64,000 bases of DNA from Alphaproteobacteria bacterium (GTDB lineage Bacteria > Pseudomonadota > Alphaproteobacteria > Rhizobiales > CAJQND01), in assembly GCA_024227565.1 (NCBI GenBank), contig JAAEUE010000291.1, forward strand, positions 1 to 64,000, in the 5' to 3' direction. Below are positions 2,411-31,073 of this stretch, in pieces; positions within the stretch are counted from its first letter, which is position 1, and each line of letters begins with the position of its first letter. A program made the translations under genes and the position numbers. The notes beneath the pieces are model-generated. The model saw only the letters and a program-made list of their open reading frames with translations, was not told the DNA's origin and did not search any database.

Positions 2411-2427
2411 ATTAGAATAATTATAAA
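2411..2427. promoter_or_regulatory. Irr-type iron-control element, box A
   Basis: ATTAGAATAATTATAAA matches the ICE consensus TTTAGAA-N3-TTCTAAA at 12 of 14 fixed positions. It lies about 135 nt upstream of the truncated ferric-binding protein gene and is followed directly by the 21-bp element that recurs after box C. Confidence 0.6.
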
Positions 2428-2428
2428 C

Positions 2429-2449
2429 TATTGATTTTATTATATTTTT
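2429..2449 (+). repeat. 21-bp promoter repeat, copy 1
   Basis: TATTGATTTTATTATATTTTT, which recurs at 3000-3020 with one mismatch. In both places it starts two bases after an Irr-type box, so box plus repeat looks like a duplicated promoter unit. Confidence 0.7.
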
Positions 2450-2462
2450 TAATAATTCTAAA
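2446..2462. promoter_or_regulatory. Irr-type iron-control element, box B
   Basis: TTTTTAATAATTCTAAA matches TTTAGAA-N3-TTCTAAA at 12 of 14 positions and overlaps the end of the 21-bp repeat. A -35-like TTGACT follows at once (2464-2469). Confidence 0.5.
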
Positions 2463-2562
2463 CTTGACTAAATTAGTATGATTTAATTGACAAGCTTCGA
2501 TCTACCAGCTTACAAGCGCTCTCAAGTGTTCCGTTTTCATGTCTCAAAACAGGATGAGCGTC

Positions 2563-2880
2563 ATGAAGAAACGTGTCTTGCAGAAATTGGTTTCAACCTC
2601 AGCGCTGGCCAGCGTGGCCGCTTTCTCCTTTGCTGGAAATGCTCTGGCGGCAAACGGCACGAAACTCACCGAGTTTCTATCCGGCGCCAAGGCCCAGCAG
2701 ATCTACGCCAGCGTCAATCGCGAATACCCCGCGAAAAATGGCGTTGCGTCGTCCGAACTTGTGAAGAGCTGGGGTAACTTTAAGGCGGATGATACGCCAC
2801 TGAAAAAGATCGAAAAGTCGCGCAAAAAAGCAACCGAACTGGTTGATGAAGTGGCGTTCAACGTCGGATCAGTTTCTTAG
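2563..2880 (+). pseudogene. Ferric iron ABC-transporter binding protein (FutA/AfuA type) with internal deletion
   Basis: A 105-residue open frame with a clear Sec signal peptide (MKKRVLQK, a hydrophobic core, GNALAANG) joined straight to the last ~65 residues of a periplasmic Fe3+-binding protein. The tail has LTEFLSG, QQIYASVNREYP, KSWGNFKAD and a closing helix typical of FutA/AfuA/IdiA proteins. Those proteins are about 330-350 residues, so roughly 230 residues, including nearly all iron ligands, are missing. The join is in frame. The start at 2563 leaves a standard signal peptide; ATGs at 2539 and 2554 are alternatives. The Irr-type boxes upstream fit an iron-transport ancestor. It cannot bind iron as FutA does; whether the small secreted remnant has any role is unknown. 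Confidence 0.7.
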
Positions 2881-2981
2881 AATCTGAACAGGAGCGCCGC
2901 TCTAACCTAGAGCCGCACTCGACTTAGAATTCTATCGATTGATCGCGTCTGCGACATACTTCTCCTTGCCCGGTTTTTGAA

Positions 2982-2998
2982 TTTAGAATTCTTCTAAC
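2982..2998. promoter_or_regulatory. Irr-type iron-control element, box C
   Basis: TTTAGAATTCTTCTAAC matches the ICE consensus TTTAGAA-N3-TTCTAAA at 13 of 14 positions. It is about 90 nt before the imelysin operon. Irr is the heme-dependent iron regulator of Rhizobiales and Rhodobacterales. A shorter palindrome, TAGAATTCTA, lies at 2925-2934. Confidence 0.75.
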
Positions 2999-2999
2999 T

Positions 3000-3020
3000 T
3001 ATTGATTTTATTATGTTTTT
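3000..3020 (+). repeat. 21-bp promoter repeat, copy 2
   Basis: TATTGATTTTATTATGTTTTT, one mismatch to 2429-2449, again directly after an Irr-type box and again followed by a TTGACT (at 3023-3028). It is the presumed promoter core of the imelysin operon. Confidence 0.7.
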
Positions 3021-3088
3021 ACTTGACTCTGTTGAATCCAAAAGTCTAACTGAACCCGTTAGCCAGCGAACTCCATTGCAGGTACCAG

Positions 3089-3616
3089 ATGACTATTCGC
3101 ATGAATTTCGAGACGTCTGCCAACTATCTGGTATTGAGGCCTGCAGAGCGGCTCGTGTTGACCGGTGTCAGGTGCTGGATGGCTGGTTATGAGCATGGCG
3201 ACATTCAATGCTGGGAGACTGCTTGGCGACATTTTTCAAGCGTGCTTGGTGCGCGCAGCGGCCGGTTGTTGTTGTCAGAATTGCAATACTGGATCCGGGT
3301 GTTGCGCGACGTCTCGTTGCGCCCAATCTCATTCTACCCGCACTGTTGCCGCCATGTCTGCGCAGATGAGTTCGTTGGGCTCTCCTTGTTGGCGGCCTAT
3401 CAACATCAAGACTTAGGCACTGCCCGGGGCGCTGCCCACCAACTCTCAGGCCTCAACCCAAGTGCTGCGTTCGATCTTTTGATTGATGCAAGTTTCAATT
3501 TTGCTACGGCACTTTCAGATGCCGATCAAGTTCTCTTGCCTGTTCCCCTGCATCTCATCGAGCACACGGCTGCCCTGGAAAATGCGGCGGGGCGGGACAG
3601 CAAAACCAAACACTAA
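3089..3616 (+). CDS. Uncharacterised protein, first gene of imelysin operon
   Basis: A 175-residue protein I do not recognise. It has no convincing signal peptide. It is rich in aromatic residues and histidines and has a Cys/His cluster, YPHCCRHVCADE, near residue 90 that could bind a metal or heme. The next gene, imelysin, starts 22 nt downstream on the same strand, and the Irr-type box at 2982 lies just upstream, so it is probably co-regulated by iron. Small unassigned proteins commonly accompany imelysin genes in alphaproteobacteria. A role in iron or heme handling is inferred only from position. Confidence 0.6.
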   Translation: MTIRMNFETSANYLVLRPAERLVLTGVRCWMAGYEHGDIQCWETAWRHFSSVLGARSGRLLLSELQYWIRVLRDVSLRPISFYPHCCRHVCADEFVGLSLLAAYQHQDLGTARGAAHQLSGLNPSAAFDLLIDASFNFATALSDADQVLLPVPLHLIEHTAALENAAGRDSKTKH

Positions 3617-3638: not shown

Positions 3639-4904
3639 ATGAGAAAACTACTTGGATCTGCAACCTTGGCTGCACTGCTGGCGTGTGGTGCTGTTGGCCC
3701 TGCAAGTGCAATAGTGACGGCTGATGCGGTCATCAAGACGTATGCGGACATTGCTCACGCTGGATATGAAGATTCGCTCATAACCGCAAAGGCGTTGGAG
3801 AAGGCTGTTGAGGCCCTCTTGGCCAAGCCGACAGCGGAAGATTTGGCCACAGCAAGAACAGCATGGATTGCCGCACGTCGCCCTTATCAGCAGACAGAAG
3901 TTTATCGCTTCGGGAACACCATCGTTGATGACTGGGAAGGCAAGGTGAATGCTTGGCCTCTCGATGAAGGCCTGATCGATTATGTAGACGGCTCATACGG
4001 AACCGAATCTGATGAGAACCCGTTCTTCGTGGTCAATCTGATCGCCAACAAGTCACTCAGCGTGGGCGGTAAAACGATAGATGCTTCGTCGATCACCCCA
4101 GAATTGTTGGGAAACCTTCATGAGGTTGGGGAAGTCGAAGCAAACGTTGCGACTGGATATCACGCCATTGAGTTCCTGCTTTGGGGACAAGATTTGAACG
4201 GCACGGATGGTGGTGCTGGAAAGCGGCCGCATACTGATTTTGATAAGGCAAACTGCACCGGCGGAAACTGTGGCCGCAGAGCGGATTATTTAGCCGCAGC
4301 AACGAAGCTGATGATCTCTGACATCGAAGAGATGGTCGCCAGTTGGAAAGCTGATGGGAAGGCGCGTGAGGCGTTGATGAAGGATCCAGCAAAGGGCGGA
4401 TTGACCGCAATACTGACTGGAATGGGTTCATTGTCCTACGGCGAACTGGCTGGTGAGCGCATGAAACTTGGCCTGCTTCTGCACGATCCCGAAGAAGAGC
4501 ATGATTGCTTCTCCGACAACACACATGAATCTCACTACTACGACACCGTAGGCATTCAGAATGTCTACAACGGCAAATACACCCGAACCGATGGCAGTGT
4601 CGTAGAGGGCCCCAGCATCTCTGATTTGGTAAAGGCCAAGGACGCAAGCCTCGATGGTGCTTTGCGGAAAGATCTGGCTGCGACCCACGCCAAGATGACC
4701 ATTCTGAAGAAGCGGGCAGAAACCAAAGAGCGTTACGACCAAATGATCGGCGAGGGCAATGCGGAAGGCAATGCGGTCGTTCAGGCGGCAATTGACGCGC
4801 TTGTGGTGCAAACCAAATCGATCGAAAAGGCGGTTGTTGCCCTGGGCCTCAAAACTGAGGTTGAAGGTTCTGACAGTCTGGACAACCCCAACGCTGTGAA
4901 GTGA
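3639..4904 (+). CDS. Imelysin family iron-regulated periplasmic protein
   Basis: A 421-residue protein with a Sec signal peptide (MRKLLGSATL..., cleavage after GPASA near residue 24). The imelysin hallmark GxHxxE is present as G173-Y-H175-A-I-E178, within GYHAIEFLLWGQD. Imelysins (IrpA/ICMP-like, Pfam peptidase M75) are iron-regulated envelope proteins thought to take part in iron uptake; protease activity is doubted. The start is chosen for the signal peptide and the GAAGGAAG ribosome site at 3622-3629; the frame is open upstream but has no similarity. The stop overlaps the next start (TGATG), showing translational coupling with the small unknown gene and then the di-heme protein. Iron control through the upstream Irr-type box is likely. 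Confidence 0.92.
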   Translation: MRKLLGSATLAALLACGAVGPASAIVTADAVIKTYADIAHAGYEDSLITAKALEKAVEALLAKPTAEDLATARTAWIAARRPYQQTEVYRFGNTIVDDWEGKVNAWPLDEGLIDYVDGSYGTESDENPFFVVNLIANKSLSVGGKTIDASSITPELLGNLHEVGEVEANVATGYHAIEFLLWGQDLNGTDGGAGKRPHTDFDKANCTGGNCGRRADYLAAATKLMISDIEEMVASWKADGKAREALMKDPAKGGLTAILTGMGSLSYGELAGERMKLGLLLHDPEEEHDCFSDNTHESHYYDTVGIQNVYNGKYTRTDGSVVEGPSISDLVKAKDASLDGALRKDLAATHAKMTILKKRAETKERYDQMIGEGNAEGNAVVQAAIDALVVQTKSIEKAVVALGLKTEVEGSDSLDNPNAVK

Positions 4905-5194
4905 TGCATATCTCAATGCTATGGCAAGATCATCTGATGCAGTCCGTGCTCACTACTGAGCCCTCTTGGGCTCAGTGGCAGCTGCACGGCAAACACTTCT
5001 ACCTTCATGAGTTGCGAAGTTGGTGCTGCTCCGTTGTCGGCTCCTGTCTGACCGATGAAGACCTAGCGGCGTTGGCGCGCCAATGGAACGTGAGCATGGG
5101 GGCTGAGGCTCGCATGTTCGATGTGCATGGTTTCTTTGTCAAACAAACGGGGACGCGGGGAGACATCTCCCGCGTTCTGCAGGGGGGTGTATAA
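4904..5194 (+). CDS. Uncharacterised small protein between imelysin and di-heme oxidoreductase
   Basis: A 96-residue protein with no recognised family. It starts at the ATG overlapping the imelysin stop by one base and ends in TAATG, overlapping the start of the di-heme gene. Such double coupling argues strongly that it is translated. It has an aromatic N-terminal half (SWAQWQLHGKHFYLHELRSW) with two adjacent cysteines and a third nearby (CCSVVGSC), and no signal peptide. A GTG at 4901 is an alternative start. It may assist maturation or targeting of its neighbours, but that is inferred from position only. Confidence 0.6.
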   Translation: MHISMLWQDHLMQSVLTTEPSWAQWQLHGKHFYLHELRSWCCSVVGSCLTDEDLAALARQWNVSMGAEARMFDVHGFFVKQTGTRGDISRVLQGGV

Positions 5195-6675
5195 TGCAGA
5201 TGGGTCATGAGTTCCCTCGCGCCTTTGGTTTTGCCGGCATTTTGGCGCTGCTCATAGGCGTTGGGACTGCCGCCACCTATGGTGTTCAAACCGTCAGCGC
5301 AGAATTCGAAGCGGGCGAGGATCGACCGGGCGGCGCCGCGACCTCCAAGCGTTCCGGCCAAAACGCAAATGCCTTTTCCCATTCTTCCGGCAACCTGAGC
5401 TTTGAAGACGAATTCACGTTCAAGCTCGGGAACGGCATTTTCCGCAAGCTGTGGGTCTCGTCCCCAGCGTCAACCAAGGCGTCCGATGGCCTGGGACCTT
5501 ACTACAACGCCCGTGCCTGCCAGCGCTGCCATCTGAAAGACGGACGTGGGCATCCCCCGTCCGGGCCGGATGACACCTTTGTTTCCATGCTTTTCCGCAT
5601 CGGTGTTCCAGCTTCAACCTCCGAGCAGATTGCACAGCTAAAGGCTCACCAGGCGAACACATTTCCCGATGCTAACTATGGCGGGCAAATTCAGGACGTC
5701 GCCATTCAAGGCTTTCCCAGCGAAGCCACACCGTCGATTACCTATGAGGAGCACGAGGTTGAGTTAAACGGCGGAGAGACTGTCTCGCTGCGAAAGCCCA
5801 TCTACCGGTTCTCCAATATGGCATATGGCCCCTTCCCACAGGGCCTAATGATCTCTCCGCGCATTGCCAACCAAATGATTGGTTTGGGCTTGCTTGAGGC
5901 AATACCAGACGAGGCACTCCGCAAGCCTGCCGACCCTCAAGATGCAAATGGCGATGGCGTTTCGGGCCGCGTGAACAAGGTTTGGGACGTGCGCAAAAAG
6001 GTGGTGCGCATCGGCCGCTTTGGCTGGAAAGCCGGGCAACCCACTGTAGAGCAACAGGCCTCGGCGGCCTTCCTTGGTGATATGGGGCTGTCTACAGCGC
6101 TCTTTCCAAATTCAGCAGGCGATTGCACGAGAAAGAACGAACGCTGTCTCGCTGCGCCGCATGGATCGGATGCTCAAGCGGGCACGCCTGAGGTTACCGA
6201 TAAGATGCTCGAACTGGTAACGTTCTATGCGCAAAACCTGGCGGTGCCGCCCCGCGTTCGGGCAAAAGAGAAGGATATATTGAAGGGTAAGGCGTTGTTT
6301 TCATCGGCGGGCTGCGCTGCATGTCATACCCCTCGCCACGTGACGGGCGACCGTGGTGAGATCCCGAAGGCGTTTTGGGGACAAGTCATCTGGCCTCACA
6401 CAGACCTGTTGCTGCATGATCTCGGTCCAGACCTCGCCGACGGCTTTACCGAAGGAGTGGCAAACGGCAGCGAATGGCGGACCCCACCACTCTGGGGTAT
6501 CGGGCACACCAAAGCCGTGAGCAAGCATACGCAATTCCTACACGACGGGCGCGCGCGCAACCTGCTTGAAGCAATCTTGTGGCACGGCGGTGAAGCGGAA
6601 GGATCACGAAACCACATGATTGAAATGATGCCGGCAGAGCGCGAACTACTGCTCGGCTATCTGAATTCACTGTAG
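5194..6675 (+). CDS. Di-heme oxidoreductase family protein (DHOR, formerly DUF1111)
   Basis: A 493-residue exported c-type cytochrome. An N-terminal hydrophobic helix (about residues 10-30) serves as signal or anchor. Two heme-binding CxxCH motifs are visible: C109-QR-C112-H113 in ARACQRCHLKDGRG and C374-AA-C377-H378 in AGCAACHTPRH. Length and motif spacing fit the DHOR family, once called thiol oxidoreductases, which regularly occur next to imelysins. The partnership is thought to serve periplasmic iron redox chemistry. The usual second imelysin and DUF1513 gene of this operon type are absent. ATGs at 5194 and 5200 are both possible starts; the first overlaps the upstream stop. Confidence 0.9.
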   Translation: MQMGHEFPRAFGFAGILALLIGVGTAATYGVQTVSAEFEAGEDRPGGAATSKRSGQNANAFSHSSGNLSFEDEFTFKLGNGIFRKLWVSSPASTKASDGLGPYYNARACQRCHLKDGRGHPPSGPDDTFVSMLFRIGVPASTSEQIAQLKAHQANTFPDANYGGQIQDVAIQGFPSEATPSITYEEHEVELNGGETVSLRKPIYRFSNMAYGPFPQGLMISPRIANQMIGLGLLEAIPDEALRKPADPQDANGDGVSGRVNKVWDVRKKVVRIGRFGWKAGQPTVEQQASAAFLGDMGLSTALFPNSAGDCTRKNERCLAAPHGSDAQAGTPEVTDKMLELVTFYAQNLAVPPRVRAKEKDILKGKALFSSAGCAACHTPRHVTGDRGEIPKAFWGQVIWPHTDLLLHDLGPDLADGFTEGVANGSEWRTPPLWGIGHTKAVSKHTQFLHDGRARNLLEAILWHGGEAEGSRNHMIEMMPAERELLLGYLNSL

Positions 6676-19747: not shown

Positions 19748-20784
19748 GAATTGCCCACCGAGAAATCGGACCTGACCATCCCCCCCTGGTGATTGCCGAA
19801 ATCGGCATCAACCACGGCGGTGATCTCGATGTGGCCGAGCATATGGTTGGTCTGGCCGCCCAATCTGGCGCCGAATGCGTCAAGCATCAGACACACTTCA
19901 TCGAAGACGAGATGACAGAGGAAGCCAAGTCGATCTTCCCGCCCAATGCCGATATGTCCATCTGGGAGGTGATGCAAAATTATTCCCTGTCGGCCGACGA
20001 TGAAATAGCGCTGAAGGGCTACGCTGAATCCTTGGGGCTGATCTATCTTTCAACCCCATTCTCGCGGCAGGCTGCAAATTTTCTAGTCGAAATCGGTGTG
20101 CCCGCGTTCAAGATCGGCTCCGGCGAAGTCGATAACCTTCCATTGATCCGCCATATCGCCAATTTCGGCAAACCGATCATCATGTCCACAGGCATGCAAT
20201 CTATCGCAACCCTCGGCCGTTCGGTTGAGATCCTTGAGAGCTCCAACGTTCCTTTTGCGCTGTTGGAATGTACCAACCTCTATCCCTCGCCGCCTGAAAT
20301 TGTCTCCCTCCAAGGCATTGGTGAACTCAGGCAGGCGTTCCCCCGCGCGACAATCGGGTTTTCAGATCACTCAATCGGCCCAACGATGGCACTCGCAGCC
20401 GTCGCCCTGGGGGCCTGCATTGTCGAGAGGCACTTCACCGACACGCGCCACAGAAGCGGACCTGACATTTCCTGCTCAATGGATCCGGCAGAGCTGCGGT
20501 TTCTCGTGGACCGATCCCAGGAAGTTCACACAGCCTTGTGTAACCCCAAGGAACGCACAAAGGCAGAAGAACCGGTCTATCGATTTGCACGCTCGTCAAT
20601 TGTCGCAGACCGGGATCTCCAAAAAGGGCACCTGATCGAGGAAGCCGATATTTGGGCGCGGCGTCCAGGAACAGGTGAAATCCCCGGCTTTGAATTTGAC
20701 AAAGTCGTCGGCCAACGACTGGCACGTGCAGTGAGCCGAAACACCCAACTTTCCTGGCCGGACTTTGAGCAGATAGAGCACTGA
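19744..20784 (+). CDS. neuB: Nonulosonic acid synthase (NeuB/LegI family)
   Basis: A 346-residue enzyme that would condense phosphoenolpyruvate with a 6-carbon amino sugar (ManNAc, or 2,4-diacetamido-2,4,6-trideoxymannose in the legionaminic branch) to a 9-carbon nonulosonic acid. The TIM-barrel start VIAEIGINHGGD, KHQTHF, KIGSGEVDNLPLI and STGMQSIATL are family blocks. The C-terminal SAF (antifreeze-like) domain begins near residue 285 (RSSIVADRDLQKG). The start overlaps the TPR gene by 4 nt, and neuC follows after 3 nt. With NeuC beside it, a sialic or legionaminic product is favoured over pseudaminic acid; the family alone does not separate LegI from NeuB. Confidence 0.9.
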   Translation: MRIAHREIGPDHPPLVIAEIGINHGGDLDVAEHMVGLAAQSGAECVKHQTHFIEDEMTEEAKSIFPPNADMSIWEVMQNYSLSADDEIALKGYAESLGLIYLSTPFSRQAANFLVEIGVPAFKIGSGEVDNLPLIRHIANFGKPIIMSTGMQSIATLGRSVEILESSNVPFALLECTNLYPSPPEIVSLQGIGELRQAFPRATIGFSDHSIGPTMALAAVALGACIVERHFTDTRHRSGPDISCSMDPAELRFLVDRSQEVHTALCNPKERTKAEEPVYRFARSSIVADRDLQKGHLIEEADIWARRPGTGEIPGFEFDKVVGQRLARAVSRNTQLSWPDFEQIEH

Positions 20785-20787
20785 GAA

Positions 20788-21939
20788 ATGCTCCAGAAGG
20801 TTCCAGTTCAGTCAAAAGACATCCTGTTTGTCACAGGCACAAGGGCAGATTTCGGCAAGCTGGAGCCACTCGCCATTGAAGCATGTTGCGCAGGCTTCCC
20901 GGTGTCGTTCTTTGTCACCGGCATGCACATGATGGAGAAGTACGGGCTCACAAAAACAGAAGTTCATCGCAGCGGCCGGTTCAACGTCGTTGAGTACATC
21001 AACCAACGCAGCGAAGACCCTCAGGATCTTGTGTTGGCAAAAACAATTATCGGTTTCTCAGACTTCCTTCAGGAGATGCGTCCAGATCTGGTGGTGGTGC
21101 ATGGTGACCGCGTCGAGGCCCTTGCCTGCGCCCTGGTTTGCTCAATGAACTACATACGGTGCGCCCACATCGAAGGCGGAGAAGTTTCCGGCACGATTGA
21201 CGAGATCTTCAGGCACTGCAACACCAAGCTGTCATCTATGCATTTGGTCTCGTCCGATGTCGCGCTCGAGCGGGTCATGCGCCTGGGTGAACCGCGCTCC
21301 TCCGTAGAGGTTATCGGGTCCCCTGAGCTGGACATTCATGCCCGGCCCTCAGGTGTGTCATTGGACGAGGTGCGCGAGCGATATGAAGTCACCTCAGACG
21401 ACTACGGCATATGCATCTTCCATCCGGTGACCTCAGAGGCTGACAACATAGGCGCTCAGGCAGAGGCTCTGTTTTCCTCTTTGATGGATTCACAACGCTA
21501 TTTCGTTGTGATTCTGCCAAACAACGATCCGGGCGCAAGTGAGATTTTGCACCATATTGATCGGCTGCCCGCTGCTCGGTTCCGCGTGCTGCCGTCCATG
21601 CGGTTTCGCTATTTCTCTGAGTTGCTGAAAAACGCGCAGGTCCTGATCGGCAATTCCAGCGCCGGGGTTCGAGAGGCGCCCTATTTGGGCATCGCGTCGC
21701 TGGATCTTGGAACACGCCAGACCAAACGTACCTTCGCTCCCTCTGTCAGCAAGGCTTGCGCCTTTGATCGGGCCGCGATTGCAGACTTCATTGCACACGA
21801 ATGGGGAAAGCGGCACCCGTGTGACAATTCCTTTGGAACCGGAACAGCGTCCGGGAAGTTCCGGGATCTTCTGTTGTCAGCCGAATTCTGGAGCAGGCCC
21901 ATGCAGAAATATTTTGCCGATGAGGCCGTAGATGCTTGA
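20788..21939 (+). CDS. neuC: UDP-GlcNAc-type 2-epimerase, hydrolysing (NeuC/LegG family)
   Basis: A 383-residue GT-B-fold epimerase that releases the 2-epimerised amino sugar (ManNAc or its 4-amino-6-deoxy analogue) from UDP for NeuB. Visible blocks are ILFVTGTRADFGKLEPL, VVHGDRVEALACAL, HIEGGEVSGTIDEIFRH, HPVTSE and LIGNSSAGVREAPYLG, the last being the UDP/active-site loop. It lies between neuB and neuA with an 8-nt overlap onto neuA. Making the legionaminic precursor would also need LegB, LegC and LegH (dehydratase, aminotransferase, acetyltransferase), none of which is in this window. Confidence 0.9.
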   Translation: MLQKVPVQSKDILFVTGTRADFGKLEPLAIEACCAGFPVSFFVTGMHMMEKYGLTKTEVHRSGRFNVVEYINQRSEDPQDLVLAKTIIGFSDFLQEMRPDLVVVHGDRVEALACALVCSMNYIRCAHIEGGEVSGTIDEIFRHCNTKLSSMHLVSSDVALERVMRLGEPRSSVEVIGSPELDIHARPSGVSLDEVRERYEVTSDDYGICIFHPVTSEADNIGAQAEALFSSLMDSQRYFVVILPNNDPGASEILHHIDRLPAARFRVLPSMRFRYFSELLKNAQVLIGNSSAGVREAPYLGIASLDLGTRQTKRTFAPSVSKACAFDRAAIADFIAHEWGKRHPCDNSFGTGTASGKFRDLLLSAEFWSRPMQKYFADEAVDA

Positions 21940-22642
21940 GGCAGCTCACGGCAATGCAATGGCGATTATCCCTCTGAGAGCCGGCTCAAAGGGGTTGCCG
22001 GGGAAAAACATCCGTCCCTTGGCGGGCAAGCCGCTTTATCTTCACAGCGTCGATCAAGCGCTGCGTGTGGTTGGGCACTGTGCCATTTCAACCGATATCT
22101 CCGATGTCTTGTGTGGTGATTACTCACCGGCCTGCCGGCTGGTGGCACGCCCGCCAGAGTTGGCGCAAGATCAAACACCAATTGCACCGGTATTGATGCA
22201 TGTGTTCGAGCATCTCAAACAGCAAGACGCTTTGCCGAAGATTGCGGTTCTTTTGCAGGCCACCTCCCCCTTGCGCCGGGATGAGGACATTCGAGATGCA
22301 ATTGCTCTCTATAAGTCGGGCCGGTTTGAGCTTGTGATGTCCGTGGTCAAAACAGATCCGGGAATTCTGAAGTACGGCTTTGCAAAGAGCGGCCGTTTCA
22401 CCCCGGTTTCTTCTCCTGAATTTTGTTTTTCCAACCGCCAGTCATTACCTGAAATCGTTCGCCCCAATGGCGCAGTTTATGTCTTTTCCCCACAGATGTT
22501 CATGCAGAACGGCAGTCTGGCCACTCAATCGATTGGTTCGATTGAGATGCCAGAGACCCATTCCATAGACATCGACACCATTGCGGATCTGAAAGCTGCA
22601 GAGGAGTTCCTCCTACGGCCTTCATTTTCCAAGGCAAGCTAG
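21932..22642 (+). CDS. neuA: Acylneuraminate/legionaminate cytidylyltransferase (NeuA/LegF family)
   Basis: A 236-residue CMP-sugar synthetase that activates the nonulosonic acid with CTP. The N-terminal nucleotide-binding motif is AIIPLRAGSKGLPGKNIRPL; LLQATSPLRRDEDI and RPNGAVYVF follow at the usual spacing, with an Asp pair near the end (SIDIDTIADL). The ATG at 21932 overlaps the neuC stop by 8 nt; the internal ATG at 21959 (MAIIPLRAG) would match the usual family start and is a real alternative. HisF-like follows after 10 nt. Confidence 0.9.
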   Translation: MLEAAHGNAMAIIPLRAGSKGLPGKNIRPLAGKPLYLHSVDQALRVVGHCAISTDISDVLCGDYSPACRLVARPPELAQDQTPIAPVLMHVFEHLKQQDALPKIAVLLQATSPLRRDEDIRDAIALYKSGRFELVMSVVKTDPGILKYGFAKSGRFTPVSSPEFCFSNRQSLPEIVRPNGAVYVFSPQMFMQNGSLATQSIGSIEMPETHSIDIDTIADLKAAEEFLLRPSFSKAS

Positions 22643-22652
22643 GCGGTGAAGC

Positions 22653-23408
22653 ATGCGCATTATCGCCAGGCTTGATGTGAAAAACGAATGGGTGATCAAA
22701 GGCATTCAAATGGAAGGCTTGCGGAAGGTCGGCGCGCCGATAGAGCTCGCGCAAGCCTATTACGAGGCCGGTGCACACGAACTCATTTTCATGGACGCGG
22801 TGGCAAGTCTCTACGACCGCAACAATCTGTTCCACATTATCGAGAAGGCTTGCGAGAACGTCTTCATTCCAATCAGCATCGGCGGCGGCCTTCGCAGCAT
22901 CGAAGATGTGTCAGACGCGCTCTCAGCGGGCGCTGACAAGGTGGCAATCAATACAGGCGCCGTGAACAACCTTTCATTGGTGAGCGAGGTTGCAAATCGG
23001 TTTGGTTCCCAATGCATTATGGGATCCATTGAGGCGAAACGACAACCTGACGGATCCTGGCAGGCCTATATCGACAATGGCCGTGAACCCACCGGTCTTG
23101 ACGTCCTCGATTGGGTTCAAAAGCTTGAAGCGGCAGGGGTTGGCGAGATTCTGTTGACCTCGGTCGATCAGGATGGAACACGCCGGGGTTTCGACCTTGA
23201 TCTCCTTGCGTCGGTCAACTCAGCAACATCACGCCCGGTCATTCTGAGCGGCGGATACGGTGAACCCAAGCATTTGGCCGCATTGCAGGACCACGGACAG
23301 GCACCAAGTGCAATAGCAGTTGCCTCGGTGCTCCATTACAATCAGGCAAATCCTTCAGAATTGATCCAGCTTGCAGCTGATTTGACCAGCACGGCCATGG
23401 CAGCATGA
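22653..23408 (+). CDS. HisF-like cyclase subunit paired with sugar amidotransferase
   Basis: A 251-residue TIM barrel of the HisF family. Key aspartates are present: Asp8 in ARLDVKN and the second in LLTSVDQDGTRRGFD. The loop VPISIGGG-like (IPISIGGGLRSIEDV) and VILSGGYG phosphate sites are also visible. It is not expected to serve histidine synthesis. HisF/HisH paralogues with a WbpG/PseA-type enzyme form an ammonia channel for amidino sugars in Pseudomonas O-antigen and in Campylobacter and Legionella nonulosonate clusters. Its stop overlaps the HisH-like start (ATGA). Confidence 0.87.
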   Translation: MRIIARLDVKNEWVIKGIQMEGLRKVGAPIELAQAYYEAGAHELIFMDAVASLYDRNNLFHIIEKACENVFIPISIGGGLRSIEDVSDALSAGADKVAINTGAVNNLSLVSEVANRFGSQCIMGSIEAKRQPDGSWQAYIDNGREPTGLDVLDWVQKLEAAGVGEILLTSVDQDGTRRGFDLDLLASVNSATSRPVILSGGYGEPKHLAALQDHGQAPSAIAVASVLHYNQANPSELIQLAADLTSTAMAA

Positions 23409-24040
23409 ACAGAGTTGGCGTGATCGATTACGGCGTGGGGAATTTGCGCAGCGTTGCAAATGCCCTTCGGCACGTCGGAGCCGAGCCCGTGGTTTCAGAT
23501 GACGCGGACACCTTGATGGCGTGCGAGCGAATAGTCTTTCCCGGTGTTGGCGCGTTCGCATATGGCAAAGAGGCCCTCTGCGCAAAGCAGCTCCACAATG
23601 TGGTGCTTGACGCGGTTGCTTGTGAAAAACCTTTGCTCGCCATTTGCGTCGGCATGCAGCTGATGTTCGAGCACTCGAGCGAGTTTGGAGAGCATGAAGG
23701 CTTGGGTGTAATCCCCGGCCGAATTGAAAAATTTGGTGCGTGCGCTGCGGACGCACCGCCCTTGCGCCTGCCCAATGTGGGCTGGCTTCCAATAGGTCCT
23801 TCGCAGGAAGCTGAAGGCCTTGCCGGCAAACTTTTGGAAGATGTGACCGCGGATTCGCGCTTCTACTTCGTTCATTCCTACTACGCCCAAAGCGCCAGTC
23901 CTCATGCGGTGGCAACATCGCAGTATGGCGGGCAGACCTTTGCCGCAGCCGTCGGAAAAGGGTCGATGTTCGCAACACAGTTCCATCCAGAAAAGAGCGG
24001 ACCGGATGGGCTGAAAATGCTCAAAAAATTTGTCAATTGA
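23405..24040 (+). CDS. HisH-like glutamine amidotransferase subunit
   Basis: A 211-residue class I glutaminase. The triad is Cys81 (AICVGMQLMFE) with His194 and Glu196 (FHPEKSG). The oxyanion region FPGVGAF is also seen. It would hydrolyse glutamine and pass ammonia through the HisF-like barrel to the sugar amidotransferase next door. Overlap of 4 nt with the HisF-like gene and 13 nt to the amidotransferase start indicate one operon. Its placement outside a his operon argues for the sugar-modification role. Confidence 0.88.
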   Translation: MNRVGVIDYGVGNLRSVANALRHVGAEPVVSDDADTLMACERIVFPGVGAFAYGKEALCAKQLHNVVLDAVACEKPLLAICVGMQLMFEHSSEFGEHEGLGVIPGRIEKFGACAADAPPLRLPNVGWLPIGPSQEAEGLAGKLLEDVTADSRFYFVHSYYAQSASPHAVATSQYGGQTFAAAVGKGSMFATQFHPEKSGPDGLKMLKKFVN

Positions 24041-24053
24041 TGAGAGGCAAGCT

Positions 24054-25268
24054 GTGACAATGCAATTACCTGTTGCCTACTACGGCCTGCCGCCAAAGGT
24101 GAGATTTTGCAAATCTTGCGTCATTTCCAATCAGCGTCCGAATTCAACGGTCGAATTCAAACACACCAAAGATGAAGCTAAAGCCACGATAGGCTTTGGC
24201 GACGACGGGATCTGCGATGCCTGCCGCTATAGCCAGACAAAAGAGCATCAGATTGATTGGGAAAAGCGCGAAGATCAGCTTGTCGCCGTGCTGGACCGAT
24301 ACAGGAAAAAGGATGGCGGGTATGACGTGGTTGTTCCGGGCAGCGGAGGCAAAGACAGCGCCTTCACGTCTCACGTTCTGAAATACCGCTATGGAATGAA
24401 CCCGCTAACCGTCACGTGGGCACCCCATCTCTATACGGACATAGGTTGGAAAAATTTTGAAGCGTGGTGTCATGTTGGCGGACATGACAACATCCTATTC
24501 ACACCGAACGGCAAGCTCCACCGACTGCTCACCAGACTGGCATTCACCAATCTGCTCCATCCGTTTCAGCCGTTCATTGTCGGCCAACGCATTATTGGCC
24601 CGCTCATGGCGGCGAAGTTCGGGGTTGAATTGGTGATGTATGGAGAAAACCAGGCAGAGTACGGCAACAATCCAGACGACAACTATGTCCCAACCATGGA
24701 CCGGAAATTTTTCACCGGCCAAGACCCCTACGAAATGATGCTGGGCGGTGTGTCGGTTAAGCAAATCATCGAAGAGCACGGTTACACGATAAATGACTTT
24801 GCCCCATACGTTCCTCCAAACGCCGACGACCTGGAACGCAAAGGCGTAGAGGTGCACTACCTGGGCTACTATCTGAAGTGGGATCCGCAGGAATGCTATT
24901 ACTACGCGGCTGAGAACACCGGCTTCCAGGCGAACTCGGAGCGGACCCCGGGCAGCTATTCAAAATATTCGAGCATCGATGACAAGATCGACATGTTCCA
25001 CTATTTCACGACCTTGATAAAATTCGGCATCGGGCGCGCAACTTATGACGCCGCGCAAGAGGTTCGAAACGGCAAGATTACCCGCGATGAAGCGGTGCAC
25101 CTGGTGAAGAAATACGATCAGGAGTTTCCAGATCGATACTATGCCGATTTTCTCGATTATATCGGCCTGACCAAGGACGAATTTTGGGAAACAGTTGACC
25201 GATTCCGCTCACCGCATCTCTGGGCGAGAACAGATGATCAATGGACCCTCATGCACCAAGTTCGATAA
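24054..25268 (+). CDS. N-acetyl sugar amidotransferase (WbpG/PseA family)
   Basis: A ~404-residue ATP-pyrophosphatase-type enzyme. Near the N-terminus are two Cys pairs (FCKSCV and CDACRY) typical of the family. The PP-loop is VVPGSGGKDSAF at about residue 95. These proteins convert an N-acetyl group of a sugar or nonulosonic acid to an acetamidino group, taking ammonia from the HisH/HisF pair. The GTG at 24054 is chosen because GAGAGG lies 7 nt upstream; ATG at 24060 is the alternative. In this operon the product is inferred to be a CMP-linked, amidino-modified legionaminic-like acid. Confidence 0.88.
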   Translation: MTMQLPVAYYGLPPKVRFCKSCVISNQRPNSTVEFKHTKDEAKATIGFGDDGICDACRYSQTKEHQIDWEKREDQLVAVLDRYRKKDGGYDVVVPGSGGKDSAFTSHVLKYRYGMNPLTVTWAPHLYTDIGWKNFEAWCHVGGHDNILFTPNGKLHRLLTRLAFTNLLHPFQPFIVGQRIIGPLMAAKFGVELVMYGENQAEYGNNPDDNYVPTMDRKFFTGQDPYEMMLGGVSVKQIIEEHGYTINDFAPYVPPNADDLERKGVEVHYLGYYLKWDPQECYYYAAENTGFQANSERTPGSYSKYSSIDDKIDMFHYFTTLIKFGIGRATYDAAQEVRNGKITRDEAVHLVKKYDQEFPDRYYADFLDYIGLTKDEFWETVDRFRSPHLWARTDDQWTLMHQVR

Positions 25269-25307
25269 TTCGCCTAGCGCGCAAACCAACTGGAAGATGA
25301 GACAAAC

Positions 25308-26453
25308 GTGCCGAAACCCCTCCGCCTCCTGCATATTGCAAGCTTCAGTGGCAATGTTGGTGACAACGCCAACCACATGGGGTTCCGGCCATGGTTTGAA
25401 GCGCAAGTTGGCACACCAGCCGCTTGGACAAATTTAGAGATTAGAGAGTTTTACTGGCGCGAACGCCAATGGGATGCAGGCTTGGTTGAGTTCATCAACA
25501 GCCATGACATGCTCATCATTGGAGGCGGCAATTATTTCGAATTGTGGGTTGAGCATTCCCCCACCGGAACATCCATCGCCATGGACCCAAAACTCTTTGA
25601 TGACATCAAGGTCCCTGTGTTCTTTAACGCGCTTGGGGTTGATCCGGGCCAAGGCGTACCACACACGTGCCGGCAGCGTTTCACCGCATTCCTCGATAAG
25701 CTCCTGAGCTCCGAACAGTATCTGGTTAGCGTGCGCAATGACGGCGCTCGCGAGAACTTGCGCCAACACATCGGCCAAGCCTACGCCGACCGGGTACACG
25801 ATCTTCCCGATCACGGTTTTTTTGTTTCACCTCCAGAAGAGGCCGCCCCGTGGGCTCAGGGCCATAACGGTCAGCGCGTGGCCATCAATCTGGCCTGCGA
25901 CATGAGCGAAACGCGCTTTTCAGGATTTGAAAACCAAGCTGCATTTGCGCGTGAAATGGCCTCGGTCATGACAGGTCTGGCTGAACATGATCGCCTGCTT
26001 CAGTTCTGTTTGGTGCCACACATCTTCCGCGATCTGGAAATCATCTCTCAGACGATAGGCTTTTTGGATGACCGCTTGCGGCGGACGCGCCTCACCGTAG
26101 CTCCTTATGGCTCTGGTGATCCCGCCGCCCGGCAAACCCTTTCTGTCTACCGTTCAGCTGATCTGGTCATGGGCATGCGGTTTCACGCCAATGTCTGTCC
26201 AATGGCCTTGGGCAAAAATGTGCTCGGATTGAATTGTTATCCGCAGATCGAAAACCTCTACCGTGGGCTCGACCTGACTGACCGATTGTTGAATGTTGGC
26301 CAGGCAGGTTTTGAGACTGAGGCCATACGGCGTGCAGAACTGGCGCTGGCGGACACTGGCGGTTCTGCAACAGCGACCCGCCAGGCAGTTTCACGTGTGA
26401 GCCAAGCACGCTCCGACTTCGAACCGCATTTGCAGCGCTGGCTGTCCTGTTAG
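25308..26453 (+). CDS. Polysaccharide pyruvyl transferase family protein
   Basis: A 381-residue protein resembling the CsaB/WcaK pyruvyl transferases: an N-terminal ASFSGNVGDNANHMG loop, a nucleotide-binding-like HDMLIIGGGNYFELW, and the C-terminal hallmark SADLVMGMRFHANVCPMALG. Such enzymes add pyruvate ketals to sugars, but many members in glycan clusters are of unknown acceptor. The GTG start at 25308 follows a GGAAGA site. It is 39 nt after the amidotransferase and the last gene of the operon. It could modify the nonulosonate glycan or act as a glycosyltransferase-like partner. Confidence 0.8.
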   Translation: MPKPLRLLHIASFSGNVGDNANHMGFRPWFEAQVGTPAAWTNLEIREFYWRERQWDAGLVEFINSHDMLIIGGGNYFELWVEHSPTGTSIAMDPKLFDDIKVPVFFNALGVDPGQGVPHTCRQRFTAFLDKLLSSEQYLVSVRNDGARENLRQHIGQAYADRVHDLPDHGFFVSPPEEAAPWAQGHNGQRVAINLACDMSETRFSGFENQAAFAREMASVMTGLAEHDRLLQFCLVPHIFRDLEIISQTIGFLDDRLRRTRLTVAPYGSGDPAARQTLSVYRSADLVMGMRFHANVCPMALGKNVLGLNCYPQIENLYRGLDLTDRLLNVGQAGFETEAIRRAELALADTGGSATATRQAVSRVSQARSDFEPHLQRWLSC

Positions 26454-26498
26454 CGCTGTTTTCCTGACCGAGTTTGGCCCGGCCGCCACATTAGCCGG

Positions 26499-28280
26499 TC
26501 AAGGGTTTGCTTCGTGTTCAGCGATCGCTTGAAGGCTCGAGACTATCTCAGATGCGGCTCGGCACACAATTGCACCAGATTGCGAGAGCTGATCTCCAAC
26601 ATCAACCGGCAAACTGCTGTTAGAATCTTCGGGTATTTGGTTCAAGCGCCCTCCGATCAAGAAGGGTATGTCCAGCTTCTTGTCAGCCATGGCGGTCTTT
26701 GAGTCTGTGTAATAGGTCAGAGCAACCCCGTTGTAGGTGCTTACTGCGACAGCATCCGGTTTCTGCTCGGCGGCCTGGGCAATCAGTTTCTCAACGTCCG
26801 TTGAAACCCCGCCATCAATCACCTCGACACCGATCCGGCGCAGGATTTCCTCGATCAACAACTTGCCGTGCTCATGCACATCCGTGGTCGCGACAATCAC
26901 GCGCATTTTCTTTGAGCGGACGACCGCGATTTCCTCAGGTGTGGCCTCGGCCATGGCAACATCTGCCATCTCACCAATTTCCTCGAGCACACTGCCCGGC
27001 ACAACCGGTTCGCGCCCGCCAATATAGGATGCATCTGAGCTCCCCACGCCAAACAAGCTTTCCAGCTGGCGCGCACCGACACGGCGCAGCGCCAGCATGA
27101 GCTCAAACGGGTCGCTTATGTTGATCCCGCCAGCCTCAAGCCCTGCCAGCACATTGTTCTTAAACTGCACGGCACCATCGACCAGCAAATCCACAATTTG
27201 ATCGGCTTGGTCCAACTCGATCAGCGGCAGCATGGTGTCGCGAAGTTGAATGAGCCGGCCGCAAAAAAGCTGAGCATCGACGATCTCATGGATATCCGGA
27301 ATTCGCTCGTTTTCGGTTACGGGCACAGCATTGACCGCATGCCCGGTCGGTTTCAGAGACTGCCCGATCGCATCAACATTCAGATAGCGGGCAAGCGAGG
27401 CATAATTCTCCGCATCGGTGCCGCGGTAAGACGTGGTGTTGCCGTAGATCATTGTTCCGGGCGTGTCGGTCAGGCCTGCGGATGCACGTTGAAAGGCCAA
27501 GCGGGTCAAGGGGTCGGAGAAATGGTGCCCAAAGCAATGGCCCATTTTCGCGCCAATCATGTCCTCTACAATTTGCCGTTCGATTTCCATCATCCCCAGC
27601 GCCGAGGTGAGGTCGGTAAACTGAGCTGCAAACCCATCATCGATGTTGGAATGAACCAGAATAGGTTCCCTCTGCCCGGCAATCAGCCCCAAGGCGACAA
27701 GGGTGGCGCGCGTGGTTTCAATGTCGTCGTCCCAGCGAGGCACGCGAAATGTGAAATACTGGCCGAAGTTGCCGATCACGGTAGACCCGCCAGCCAATAC
27801 CAGCTGAGTGTTTTCAATTGCCGCAGGAAACCCAAGTACGAAATCACCGAAATGCGGAGCAGCCGGAGCCTCCGACGTTAGTCGTGCGCAGGTTTCAGGA
27901 TCAGATAAGATCATCCCCGTCCCGCGGGTTGCCTTGGCCCTTTGATCGCGCGGCACCGCCATGGACCAGTCCAGACAGATGCCGATGCGATCGATCACAA
28001 CGTCCCGTGCGATGCATTCATTCCAAACAGTGCGATAAGCTTCACAGGTCCGCTCCACATCGCGGAACCCAACCTGCGCGTGCTGCATGACACGGCCATC
28101 AGCAATGCATCGCTTCTTGTAGGCATATTCGCTGGCCACATCATGGTGCGCCATGAACGCGTTCTTCTCAACGCTCCAGTCTCGCGCCAAGGCCTGCCCT
28201 TCAGACAAAAGATCTGATCCTCTGGGCAGCTCGGGTTCTGGAAAGATCTCTCTGCGATCTATGTGGTCTTTGCTTATCAT
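26499..28280 (-). CDS. B12-binding mutase-like protein of unknown substrate
   Basis: A 593-residue protein in two parts. Residues ~1-450 look like a TIM-barrel catalytic domain related in layout to glutamate-mutase/methylmalonyl-CoA-mutase large subunits, with motifs such as KATRGTGMILSDPE and GHCFGHHFSDPLTR. Residues ~460-590 are a cobalamin-binding domain with the base-off DxHxxG motif (VATTDVHEHGKLLI), a Ser-containing strand (VAVSTYNG) and FLIGGRLN. I cannot match it to a named carbon-skeleton mutase. The start ATG at 28280 has GGGAGCG upstream. It reads in the same direction as tetR, with a perfect 8-bp-arm dyad between them. A link to the hydantoin/amine catabolic genes nearby is plausible but unproved. 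Confidence 0.75.
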   Translation of the reverse strand: MISKDHIDRREIFPEPELPRGSDLLSEGQALARDWSVEKNAFMAHHDVASEYAYKKRCIADGRVMQHAQVGFRDVERTCEAYRTVWNECIARDVVIDRIGICLDWSMAVPRDQRAKATRGTGMILSDPETCARLTSEAPAAPHFGDFVLGFPAAIENTQLVLAGGSTVIGNFGQYFTFRVPRWDDDIETTRATLVALGLIAGQREPILVHSNIDDGFAAQFTDLTSALGMMEIERQIVEDMIGAKMGHCFGHHFSDPLTRLAFQRASAGLTDTPGTMIYGNTTSYRGTDAENYASLARYLNVDAIGQSLKPTGHAVNAVPVTENERIPDIHEIVDAQLFCGRLIQLRDTMLPLIELDQADQIVDLLVDGAVQFKNNVLAGLEAGGINISDPFELMLALRRVGARQLESLFGVGSSDASYIGGREPVVPGSVLEEIGEMADVAMAEATPEEIAVVRSKKMRVIVATTDVHEHGKLLIEEILRRIGVEVIDGGVSTDVEKLIAQAAEQKPDAVAVSTYNGVALTYYTDSKTAMADKKLDIPFLIGGRLNQIPEDSNSSLPVDVGDQLSQSGAIVCRAASEIVSSLQAIAEHEANP

Positions 28281-28392
28281 CACACGCTCCCAAGAAACTA
28301 TCTAAGAAGGACAGGAACTTGGCAAGGTCAGTGCACGCGCTCAGAGCGCGATGGCAGGTTGGCGGTGGATGCTGATCTCGTCCTTCCCTGAA

Positions 28393-28420
28393 GAACATTG
28401 CATCCTAGCGTTCAATGTTC
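28393..28420. promoter_or_regulatory. Perfect 8-bp inverted repeat upstream of the B12 protein
   Basis: GAACATTG at 28393-28400 and CAATGTTC at 28413-28420 are perfect complements separated by 12 nt. It lies 22 nt past the tetR stop and ~110 nt before the B12-protein start on the minus strand. There is no U-run, so an operator is likelier than a terminator. Confidence 0.5.
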
Positions 28421-28441
28421 GCGCTGCCGTCCGCCGCGCGC

Positions 28442-29086
28442 TCATTGTTTGCGCTCCAGAGCCAGAAAGCGCCTTGAGAACTCATCGGCAACCCGCTGGT
28501 CAATGTTTCGGCCGGTGAAGCACTGGAAATAAGCTGCAAGATAGCTCACACGCTTCTCCATGGGCTCGCTGATGTTGAGCACGTAATAGCTGAGCTGGGT
28601 AAAGTAGATGACACGCGCGCGGATGAACGATTCTGGATGCACGTAGCCGTGGCGCTCATAGAACGCTGCAATCGCTTCAACCCGGTCATCATCTTCCTTG
28701 GAGAGAATCTCTCTTACAACCGTGTCGCGCCGGCCCCAATCTCGAATGGCCTGATCGAGCTGGAAACTGAAGCGTGAGTGACCCACCCACACGGAAAAGA
28801 GGTCCAGCACCCCGTCATCCAACGATTTTGCATTCTTGAGCACATCGACCATGACGCCGGTGTTTCTGGCACTCCATTCTTCCAGCAGGGCAGACAAAAG
28901 GTCCTTGCGCCCCTTGAAGTGCCAATAATAACTGCCGCGCGTCACACCAAGATCGCGGGCAAGCCGGGTGATTTGAACGGCCTCGACACCGTCGTCAATC
29001 AACACGCCGAGCGCGGCGACAATCCAATCATCCCGGTTGAGTTGGGGGTCGCGTTTGCGTTGGTTCTGCGTCGATAGGAGTTTCAT
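28442..29086 (-). CDS. TetR/AcrR family transcriptional regulator
   Basis: A 214-residue regulator. The N-terminal HTH (DDGVEAVQITRLARDLGVTR, then GSYYWHFKGRKDLLSALL) is a textbook TetR DNA-binding domain. The C-terminal ligand domain is helical and unassigned. The ATG at 29086 (MKLLSTQ) is preferred over an upstream in-frame start. It is divergent from the cupin/FAD oxidase pair across a ~95-nt gap holding a dyad (29116-29136), so repression of that pair and of itself is the natural reading. The B12 protein lies downstream on the same strand. Confidence 0.88.
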   Translation of the reverse strand: MKLLSTQNQRKRDPQLNRDDWIVAALGVLIDDGVEAVQITRLARDLGVTRGSYYWHFKGRKDLLSALLEEWSARNTGVMVDVLKNAKSLDDGVLDLFSVWVGHSRFSFQLDQAIRDWGRRDTVVREILSKEDDDRVEAIAAFYERHGYVHPESFIRARVIYFTQLSYYVLNISEPMEKRVSYLAAYFQCFTGRNIDQRVADEFSRRFLALERKQ

Positions 29087-29115
29087 AAAACAGTTCACCA
29101 CACACTATTGTGCGG

Positions 29116-29136
29116 AACCATACACGGTTGTATGTT
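29116..29136. promoter_or_regulatory. Candidate TetR operator
   Basis: The 21 bp from 29116 form an imperfect dyad: AACCATACA on the left and TGTATGTT on the right, complementary apart from one bulged base. It is in the gap between tetR and the divergent cupin gene, the usual position for a TetR operator. Confidence 0.5.
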
Positions 29137-29181
29137 GCTGCGTCAATAATCGCCCCAACAGGCTTTTAGGGAGAGGTTCGC

Positions 29182-29547
29182 ATGACACAGTCGGTAAAAT
29201 CCGCCGCGGCCAGAACGGTTCGCTTTGAGGAGCTCGGGTTCAGCCCGCGTTTTGCCTATGGAGACCAGGCAGAGGTCGTGGAGGTGACGGGAACCGGCGA
29301 TGGAACGGTACTCGGCACAGGCTTTGGCCGTTTTACCAATGCGGAAATCCCCTGGACCACCAAATACGATGAAGTTCTGCTTATCATTGAAGGGGAAGTC
29401 ACGGTGCGCACGCCGTCCGGCGATCTAACAGCAGGCCCCAAAGACTGCATATGGCTGCCTAACGGTACGGAGCTGATCTACATCGCCAAGTCGGCTTTGG
29501 TTTTCTACACCATACATCCGAGCAATTGGGCGGAGGCTGAACAATGA
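29182..29547 (+). CDS. Cupin (EutQ-like) protein
   Basis: A 121-residue single-domain cupin. The strands YDEVLLIIEGEVTVRTPSGD and GPKDCIWLPNGTELIY match the two cupin motifs, with a Glu but few of the usual His ligands, as in EutQ-like proteins. It overlaps the FAD oxidoreductase start by 4 nt (ATGA) and is probably co-translated. In amine-degradation clusters such cupins often accompany DAO-type oxidases; the reaction is unknown. Confidence 0.78.
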   Translation: MTQSVKSAAARTVRFEELGFSPRFAYGDQAEVVEVTGTGDGTVLGTGFGRFTNAEIPWTTKYDEVLLIIEGEVTVRTPSGDLTAGPKDCIWLPNGTELIYIAKSALVFYTIHPSNWAEAEQ

Positions 29548-30860
29548 AGATCAACCGCATTCCAATAGTCGACAAAACCAACGGTTGGAGCGGCATCCTG
29601 GCGCCGCGCGCACCTAACCCTGCGCTTGAAACCAACGCGGCCGCCGACTGGATCGTCCTGGGCGGAGGCTATGCCGGCCTGTCTGCGGCGCGGCGCTTGG
29701 CTGAAAACTGCCCGGACCAGCACATTGCCCTCATCGATGCGGGCATGGCAGGAGAGAACGCCTCTGGACGGAATTCAGGCTTTGCCATCGACTTGCCCCA
29801 CAATGTGGGCTCATCACTGGATGAACTTGAAGGCTCGCACAGGTTCATGCGGCTCGCCCGCACAGCCATAGAGCAACTGGAAACAGCCGTAAAAACCCAT
29901 GGCATCAAGTGTGACTGGTCCGCCGATGGACGTTACCACACCGCCGTCTCGGCCCGCGGCGTCCAAGACGTGCTGGAGCCATATGCAAAGGAGCTTGAGG
30001 CATTGGGCGAACCATTTGAATGGATCGACCGCGACCAACTTGGCCAGCGCATAGGCACCGATCATTTCACCGCAGCAGTGTTCACTCCCGGCGGCGCCCT
30101 GATGAACCCGGCCGCCCTGACCCGCGGCCTGGCCGACAGCCTGCCCGGCAACGTCACGTTCTATGAAAACTCACCGGTCACCGAAGCAGTGTTTGAAAAC
30201 GGCATTCACCTGACCACCGCCAATGGGTCGCTCCGCGCCCCGAAGATGATCTTGGCGGCCAACGGCTACTCAGAACAGTTCGGCTTCTTCCGGCAACGAC
30301 TGCTGCATCTCTTGGCCTGGGGCAGCCTCACCCGTCCGCTGAACGAGGCTGAGCGTGCTGCCTATGGCGTCGATGCGCCCTGGGGCCTGACGCCGGCAAA
30401 TGCGTTCGCCGGCATCACAATGCGTTACACCAACGACCACCGCATCCTCATCCGGCAGGGCCTCAACTACTGCCCAAGCCAGGCGGTGGACCCAAGTGCG
30501 TATGCAGCCTTCGCGCGCCAGCACAAGAAGCTGTTCGATCTGCGCTTTCCGATGTTGCCTGATGTGGAAATTGAGCACACCTGGAGCGGTTTCGTTTGCC
30601 TGTCGCAGAACGCCGCTCCCGGGTTTGGTCAATTGGCCCCGAACATTTGGTCCGCCGTGTGCCAAAACGCAGTGGGCGTCACCAAAGGCACCTTCGGAGG
30701 CATGCTCGCCGCCGACATGGCGACCGAAAGGGACAATCCGCTGATCGGGGACATGCTCAGCTTGGGCGAACCGAGCCAACTTCCCCCCAGGCCGTTTCTC
30801 GATATCGGGGTCCGCGCCCGCTTTATGTGGGAGTTATGGTCGAACCGGCACGAGGCCTAG
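29544..30860 (+). CDS. FAD-dependent amine/amino-acid oxidoreductase (DAO family)
   Basis: A 438-residue flavoprotein similar to gamma-glutamylputrescine or N-methyl-amino-acid oxidases. The Rossmann dinucleotide motif is WIVLGGGYAGLSAARRLAE (from about residue 37). AGMAGENASGRNSGF is the adjacent FAD contact, GGALMNPAALTRGLAD a conserved middle block, and HTWSGFVCLSQNAAPGFGQL the substrate-face block near the C-terminus. It oxidises a C-N bond with FAD and is probably cytoplasmic. It is coupled to the cupin gene and controlled by the divergent TetR. The substrate is unknown; a secondary amine or N-methyl amino acid is plausible. Confidence 0.87.
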   Translation: MKINRIPIVDKTNGWSGILAPRAPNPALETNAAADWIVLGGGYAGLSAARRLAENCPDQHIALIDAGMAGENASGRNSGFAIDLPHNVGSSLDELEGSHRFMRLARTAIEQLETAVKTHGIKCDWSADGRYHTAVSARGVQDVLEPYAKELEALGEPFEWIDRDQLGQRIGTDHFTAAVFTPGGALMNPAALTRGLADSLPGNVTFYENSPVTEAVFENGIHLTTANGSLRAPKMILAANGYSEQFGFFRQRLLHLLAWGSLTRPLNEAERAAYGVDAPWGLTPANAFAGITMRYTNDHRILIRQGLNYCPSQAVDPSAYAAFARQHKKLFDLRFPMLPDVEIEHTWSGFVCLSQNAAPGFGQLAPNIWSAVCQNAVGVTKGTFGGMLAADMATERDNPLIGDMLSLGEPSQLPPRPFLDIGVRARFMWELWSNRHEA

Positions 30861-30872
30861 ACACGTCGCAGG

Positions 30873-31073
30873 TCAGCTCCGGCCCCAACCGATTTTTGAC
30901 CACATCATTTCGTGCATGAAATAGCTGATGAAGCCCACCAATGCTGATGCAATGGCGATACTTCCGCCGGCGGTGAAGGAGTTGGTGAACAGGTATCCGA
31001 TGAGGGTCATCACCAAGAGACCTGAAACTTGCCAGGTGATGGATTTGGTGATCAGTCTGCGGGTGGTGTCCAT
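30873..31073 (-). CDS. DUF2061 family small membrane protein
   Basis: A 66-residue protein with two hydrophobic helices (ITWQVSGLLVMTLIGYLFTN and GSIAIASALVGFISYFMHE) and an ending MMWSKIGWGR. This matches the DUF2061 family of small inner-membrane proteins without known function. Start MDTTRR at 31073 is preferred to the ATG four codons upstream. It is convergent with the FAD oxidase and divergent from the XRE regulator. Confidence 0.8.
   Translation of the reverse strand: MDTTRRLITKSITWQVSGLLVMTLIGYLFTNSFTAGGSIAIASALVGFISYFMHEMMWSKIGWGRS

Follow-up and report, generated by a model that had tools for sequence, protein, structure and literature searches.

Two promoter units in a Hyphomicrobiales genome, one before a truncated ferric-binding protein gene (fbpA) and the other before an imelysin operon, are on sequence grounds a new and functional-looking example of a known control system, that of the Fur-family regulator Irr and its box, the ICE. 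Both are very probably promoters activated by Irr when iron (haem) is low. The units lie in a 64-kb stretch of DNA, analysed as a whole and referred to here as the window, on contig C291 of a 5.47-Mb, 418-contig MAG. The genome of a sister species of the same genus (G001; Hyphomicrobiales MAG, isolate IP29b_bin.146) served for comparison.

Two promoter units with Irr boxes

The features of the two units are as follows.

Unit 1, before the truncated fbpA
2411–2427, + strand: distal ICE (Irr box 1), 17-mer ATTAGAATAATTATAAA; 25.2 bits, the window's best; orthologous position in G001
2429–2449, + strand: 21-bp element TATTGATTTTATTATATTTTT, starting with an RYTG flank and ending within ICE 2
2446–2462, + strand: proximal ICE (Irr box 2), 17-mer TTTTTAATAATTCTAAA; 24.8 bits; 35 bp from box 1, start to start
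2463–2480, + strand: IscR-like dyad CTTGACTAAATTAGTATG, resembling TTGACTCCCTTAGTCGG at iscR and TTGACTAAAATAGTTGG at full-length fbpA
2487–2492, + strand: candidate −35, TTGACA, 24 bp past ICE 2; same place in G001
2510–2515, + strand: candidate −10, TTACAA, after a 17-bp spacer; weak match

Unit 2, before the imelysin operon
2982–2998, + strand: ICE (Irr box), 17-mer TTTAGAATTCTTCTAAC; 24.7 bits
3000–3020, + strand: 21-bp element TATTGATTTTATTATGTTTTT, an AT-rich spacer with an RYTG flank
3023–3028, + strand: candidate −35, TTGACT, 24 bp past the ICE 17-mer and 2 nt past the 21-bp element
3046–3051, + strand: candidate −10, CTAACT, after a 17-bp spacer; weak match

A preliminary description of this DNA had reported the same series twice: a box, a 2-base step, a 21-bp element (20 of 21 identical) and then TTGACT. 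This holds in full for unit 2 (ICE, CT, 21 bp, AC, TTGACT) and, up to the final hexamer, for unit 1 (ICE, AC, 21 bp, 14 bp, TTGACT), where TTGACT stands 14 nt downstream of the element and not directly after it. Those 14 bp complete the second ICE-like box (2446–2462), which had been overlooked along with TTGACA at 2487–2492. The TTGACT of unit 1 (2464–2469) is the left half of the IscR-like dyad, and we rejected it as the −35 because relatives keep TTGACA 24 or 25 bp past the proximal ICE; the best −35 candidate of unit 1 is thus TTGACA at 2487, a position that several fbpA promoters share to within 1 bp. The resulting plans are ICE–ICE–24 bp–TTGACA–17–TTACAA for unit 1 and ICE–24 bp–TTGACT–17–CTAACT for unit 2, so that in both a box stands 24 bp upstream of the candidate −35, clear of the core promoter. 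Alphaproteobacterial −10 boxes are loose, and a simple consensus sigma-70 scan reported neither unit's promoter; the −35 and −10 assignments of both units rest on conservation.

The reading of these units as Irr-box promoters before iron genes is supported by a matrix scan and by a search for the regulator's gene. With an ICE matrix trained on relatives' sites and on own-genome sites outside the window, and thus partly on orthologous sister-species promoters, units 1 and 2, with their three boxes, and a box before hemA (22.4 bits) supplied the four top positions in the 64 kb (22–25 bits). Background was far lower than the unit boxes (24.7–25.2 versus 10.8 bits at the fifth position, which itself overlaps unit 1), and 0 of 3001 local shuffles scored as high, so the boxes are not due to chance. 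The genome has three Fur-family genes, one of which, adjoining fabA/fabB, is irr and exceeds the cut-offs of both NCBI Irr models (NF045678, 208 bits against 150; NF045677, 197 bits against 170). The boxes are also kept before the orthologous genes in relatives.

Across the whole genome, TTAGAANNNTTCTAA has eight matches with at most one mismatch, and all eight precede iron genes: the imelysin operon, the truncated fbpA, full-length fbpA on contig C164 (a doublet with 35-bp spacing), bfr, a nifU-like gene, hemA (window position 45175) and iscR. The 15-mer core of unit 2 (TTAGAATTCTTCTAA, 2983–2997) is the genome's only perfect match, and the distal core of unit 1 (TTAGAATAATTATAA, 2412–2426) has one mismatch. 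The plain count is not above that of a reversed-pattern control (8 versus 9), so in this comparison only the positions before iron genes carry the case. At bfr and iscR the ICE lies over or directly after the core promoter. The hemA box (TTTACAATTGTTCTAAA, 45175–45191) lies about 130 bp before the gene, which encodes 5-aminolevulinate synthase (TIGR01821) and is likely a further member of the Irr regulon. Contig C164 holds a second iron cluster (20000–31000) with three ICEs, in which the doublet leads into full-length fbpA and a permease, and which also includes bfr and, alongside, a DHOR-like gene.

The genes behind the two units are the following.

2563–2880, + strand: truncated fbpA (periplasmic ferric-binding protein); the signal peptide is followed in frame by the C-terminal 75 residues
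3089–3616, + strand: first gene of the imelysin operon, 175 aa, kept in G001 behind the unit 2 counterpart
3639–4904, + strand: imelysin (Peptidase_M75 family) gene; PF09375, E 9.7e-88
4904–5194, + strand: 96-aa gene, kept in G001; no family
5194–6675, + strand: di-haem oxidoreductase (DHOR) gene; PF06537, E 8.7e-91; last gene of the probable imelysin operon

Compared with G001, the truncated fbpA has lost 245 codons in frame behind an intact promoter, a gap that is possibly an assembly fault. Third-position changes still dominate between the two (13, 12 and 43 changes by codon position), with 12 second-position changes compared with 2 between intact copies. Full-length proteins have a TYYM stretch that the truncated gene does not encode, and since the known iron ligands of FbpA are tyrosines, its product is unlikely to bind iron. 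On C164 the genome retains full-length fbpA behind a separate doublet promoter.

Neither the 175-aa nor the 96-aa gene (3089–3616 and 4904–5194) matched a Pfam or NCBIfam family; both encode Cys/His-rich stretches (FYPHCCRHVCADE; LRSWCCSVVGSCL), and genes resembling the 175-aa gene seem to precede imelysin at two other loci (L018 and L021). The imelysin gene is part of the operon in the window, whereas its G001 orthologue lies on another contig behind its own ICE promoter and the corresponding G001 operon ends in a different imelysin-like gene. At the window's start, an open frame (1–600) has an in-frame TGA at 367–369 past which the coding style seems to continue, possibly marking a broken gene or a sequence error.

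Promoter plans and spacing in relatives

Aligned fbpA promoters of relatives share one plan: ICE 1, ICE 2 about 35 bp on (33–36), an IscR-like dyad (CTTGACTAA-TTAGT-GG), TTGACA 24 or 25 bp past ICE 2, 17 bp and a TTA-type −10. The sequence of unit 1 aligns with this plan without gaps. The imelysin-type plan consists of one ICE, 24 bp, TTGACT as −35, 17 bp and a −10; unit 2 and the same-genus imelysin promoter conform to it, and in G001 the spacing also occurs, with TTGCGC, before a Bfd-like gene.

A pattern search of the order's 397 genomes for ICE-N{12,42}-TTGAC gave 75 matches compared with 7 for the reversed control. The gap after the ICE 15-mer peaked at 25/26 (31 matches) and, one helical turn on, at 35/36 (13 matches), equivalent for the 17-mer to 24/25 bp before the −35 or one turn more. 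After removal of near-copies, 14 of 51 gaps fell at 25/26 (p = 2.8e-6), and the gaps have a period of about 10.5 bp (p ~5e-5; periods of 10–11.5 do equally well). These p-values, like that for the flank below, are only guides, because the tests were designed with the first cases already in view and related genomes do not count as independent samples. Most of the 25 ICE-TTGAC loci examined lead into fbpA homologues, the rest including imelysin, Bfd-like proteins and di-haem or other cytochromes. At gaps of 24–26, all 10 loci examined lead into fbpA or imelysin homologues 34–119 nt downstream, identified from their similarity to the FbpA and imelysin sequences rather than by a family search for each.

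The spacing is accompanied by a flank. RYTG directly past the box, found at the start of the 21-bp element of unit 1, is conserved in activator-type ICEs and was present at 18 of 29 sites with gaps of 25, 26, 35 or 36 compared with 4 of 28 at other gaps (p = 2e-4). Among six sites tested in the window's own genome, it occurs at the imelysin and truncated-fbpA promoters and not at hemA, bfr, nifU or iscR. We found no description of the 24/25- or 34/35-bp distance to the −35, or of the RYTG flank, in the published passages on Irr that we consulted.

Imelysin promoters are more varied. Among 80 named imelysin loci, an upstream ICE was present in 0 of 8 betaproteobacterial and about half of the alphaproteobacterial cases, where the commonest distances to TTGAC were 24, 33–36 or 9 bp; several loci thus depart from the 24-bp rule, with 9-bp spacing or no box. 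In Rhizobiaceae imelysin promoters (L151, L155, L162, L166, L171, L173, L175, L178, L197 and L201), 9 bp separate a weak ICE from TTTGACAC downstream; this second layout does not share the helical phase of the 24/35-bp class. A further geometry, unlike the 35-bp doublet, occurs at L115–L121 (family f6, mostly genus g7), where tandem ICEs are only 22 bp apart, frequently with CATTG between them.

Probable regulation by Irr and possible role of IscR

In published work, Irr is a repressor or an activator depending on ICE location (PMC7762939, citing Rudolph 2006), binds the ICE in its haem-free state and is one of few Fur-family proteins that often activate directly (PMC7762939). The activated promoters described there (Rudolph 2006, as cited in PMC7762939) share with units 1 and 2 the kind of palindrome (TTTAGAANNNTTCTAAA), the regulator family, a box upstream of the core promoter and iron-gene targets; they differ in that the targets here are fbpA and an imelysin/di-haem operon and in that the tandem boxes are 35 bp apart.

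We infer Irr binding and the direction of its effect from this arrangement. An Irr dimer would occupy the ICE, ahead of the site taken by RNA polymerase. The 17-mer ends 24 bp before the candidate −35, which puts the centre of the box at about −68 when the −35 hexamer is counted as −35 to −30. A box edge at a phased distance upstream of the −35 fits activation by contact with RNA polymerase, which Irr would help, perhaps through the C-terminal domain of the alpha subunit on the AT-rich 24-bp spacer. Both operons would be switched on together in low iron; once iron returns, haem-loaded Irr would be released (or degraded) and expression would drop. Counting against activation are the poor matches of the −10 candidates, the imelysin loci with other spacings or no box, and a report that Irr of Rhodobacter sphaeroides binds targets weakly and has only a small influence on iron genes (PMC3413700).

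Irr could instead repress both units, with the boxes as operators and low iron shutting the operons off. It is a repressor at many targets, and repression in low iron would be expected at this genome's own bfr and iscR, given ICEs over or directly after the core promoter. The published accounts of repressing boxes at mbfA of Sinorhizobium meliloti and R. sphaeroides describe the same box and regulator, but there the boxes overlap the −35/−10 or the start site (PMC7540006, PMC3413700), whereas in both units 24 bp lie between the end of the box and the best −35 candidate downstream. A simple operator would have no need of the helical-turn spacing kept in relatives, and the targets are uptake-type genes, which cells want in low iron. 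Repression of both units by Irr is therefore improbable.

There is similarly little chance that the main control comes from IscR or another Rrf2 protein, acting at an Iron-Rhodo-box or RirA-like site, with the ICEs in a secondary role. Unit 1 does carry CTTGACTAAATTAGTATG, which resembles the iscR and full-length fbpA promoters, and IscR represses uptake genes, afuA among them, in R. sphaeroides, whose Iron-Rhodo-box regulon includes an IscR-type site in a ferric-binding protein promoter (PMC4618611). Here, by comparison, the site accompanies Irr boxes; the dyad is imperfect in unit 1, and in unit 2 and its G001 counterpart just the left half is present, a half that doubles as the −35 candidate. 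It is the ICE that is kept in all these promoters. A search of the genome for the IscR dyad gave perfect matches only at iscR and full-length fbpA, the pattern's own source sites.

Activation by Irr leaves room for IscR at unit 1. This fbpA-type promoter has two ICEs and, past the proximal one but ahead of the −35, an IscR-like dyad, so IscR may add a second, Fe-S-based check, and by analogy this may be repression, as at afuA in R. sphaeroides (PMC4618611). In G001, an Rrf2-type regulator gene lies divergent from fbpA on contig C79 (L109, 7261–7692), and its product may read the TTGACT dyad.

History of the units and meaning of the spacing

The likeness of the two units is well beyond chance: a repeat finder reported a single 46-nt direct repeat with 80% identity, its copies 571 nt apart, and the best gap-free 46-nt match between them has 37 identities, whereas 100 composition-preserving shuffles average 24 and never exceed 28. 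The preliminary description took this for a promoter duplication that wired two iron operons to one regulator. On contig C79 of G001, an intact fbpA with its unit 1 counterpart is followed, in the same order, by a unit 2 counterpart and then by equivalents of the 175-aa gene, the 96-aa gene and DHOR, so any duplication was neither local nor recent. Over 40 compared positions, each unit is closer to its G001 counterpart (36/40 for unit 1, 35/40 for unit 2) than the two are to each other within the window (32/40).

A recent local copying of one promoter to the other operon, suggested by the 80% repeat and the 20-of-21 element far above shuffles, is thus highly unlikely, given the conserved order in G001, the closer cross-species likeness and a layout that recurs in distant families. 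Any duplication predates the split of the two species, and it may predate the families. Similar ICE-ATTG-AT-rich-TTGAC units precede fbpA and imelysin genes in many families, and the likeness would therefore stem from shared selection or from a very old common origin.

More tentatively, and with somewhat less confidence than doubt, we propose a hard geometric code in Hyphomicrobiales, in which an ICE with RYTG stands 24/25 bp, or one turn more, before the −35, optionally as a 35-bp doublet, and two ICEs with an IscR site form a combined haem/Fe-S gate for fbpA. If the fixed, phased distance holds true, one could read from sequence alone whether Irr turns a promoter on or off, and direct contact of Irr with RNA polymerase would be suggested. 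The imelysin/di-haem operon would also come under the same low-iron switch as fbpA.
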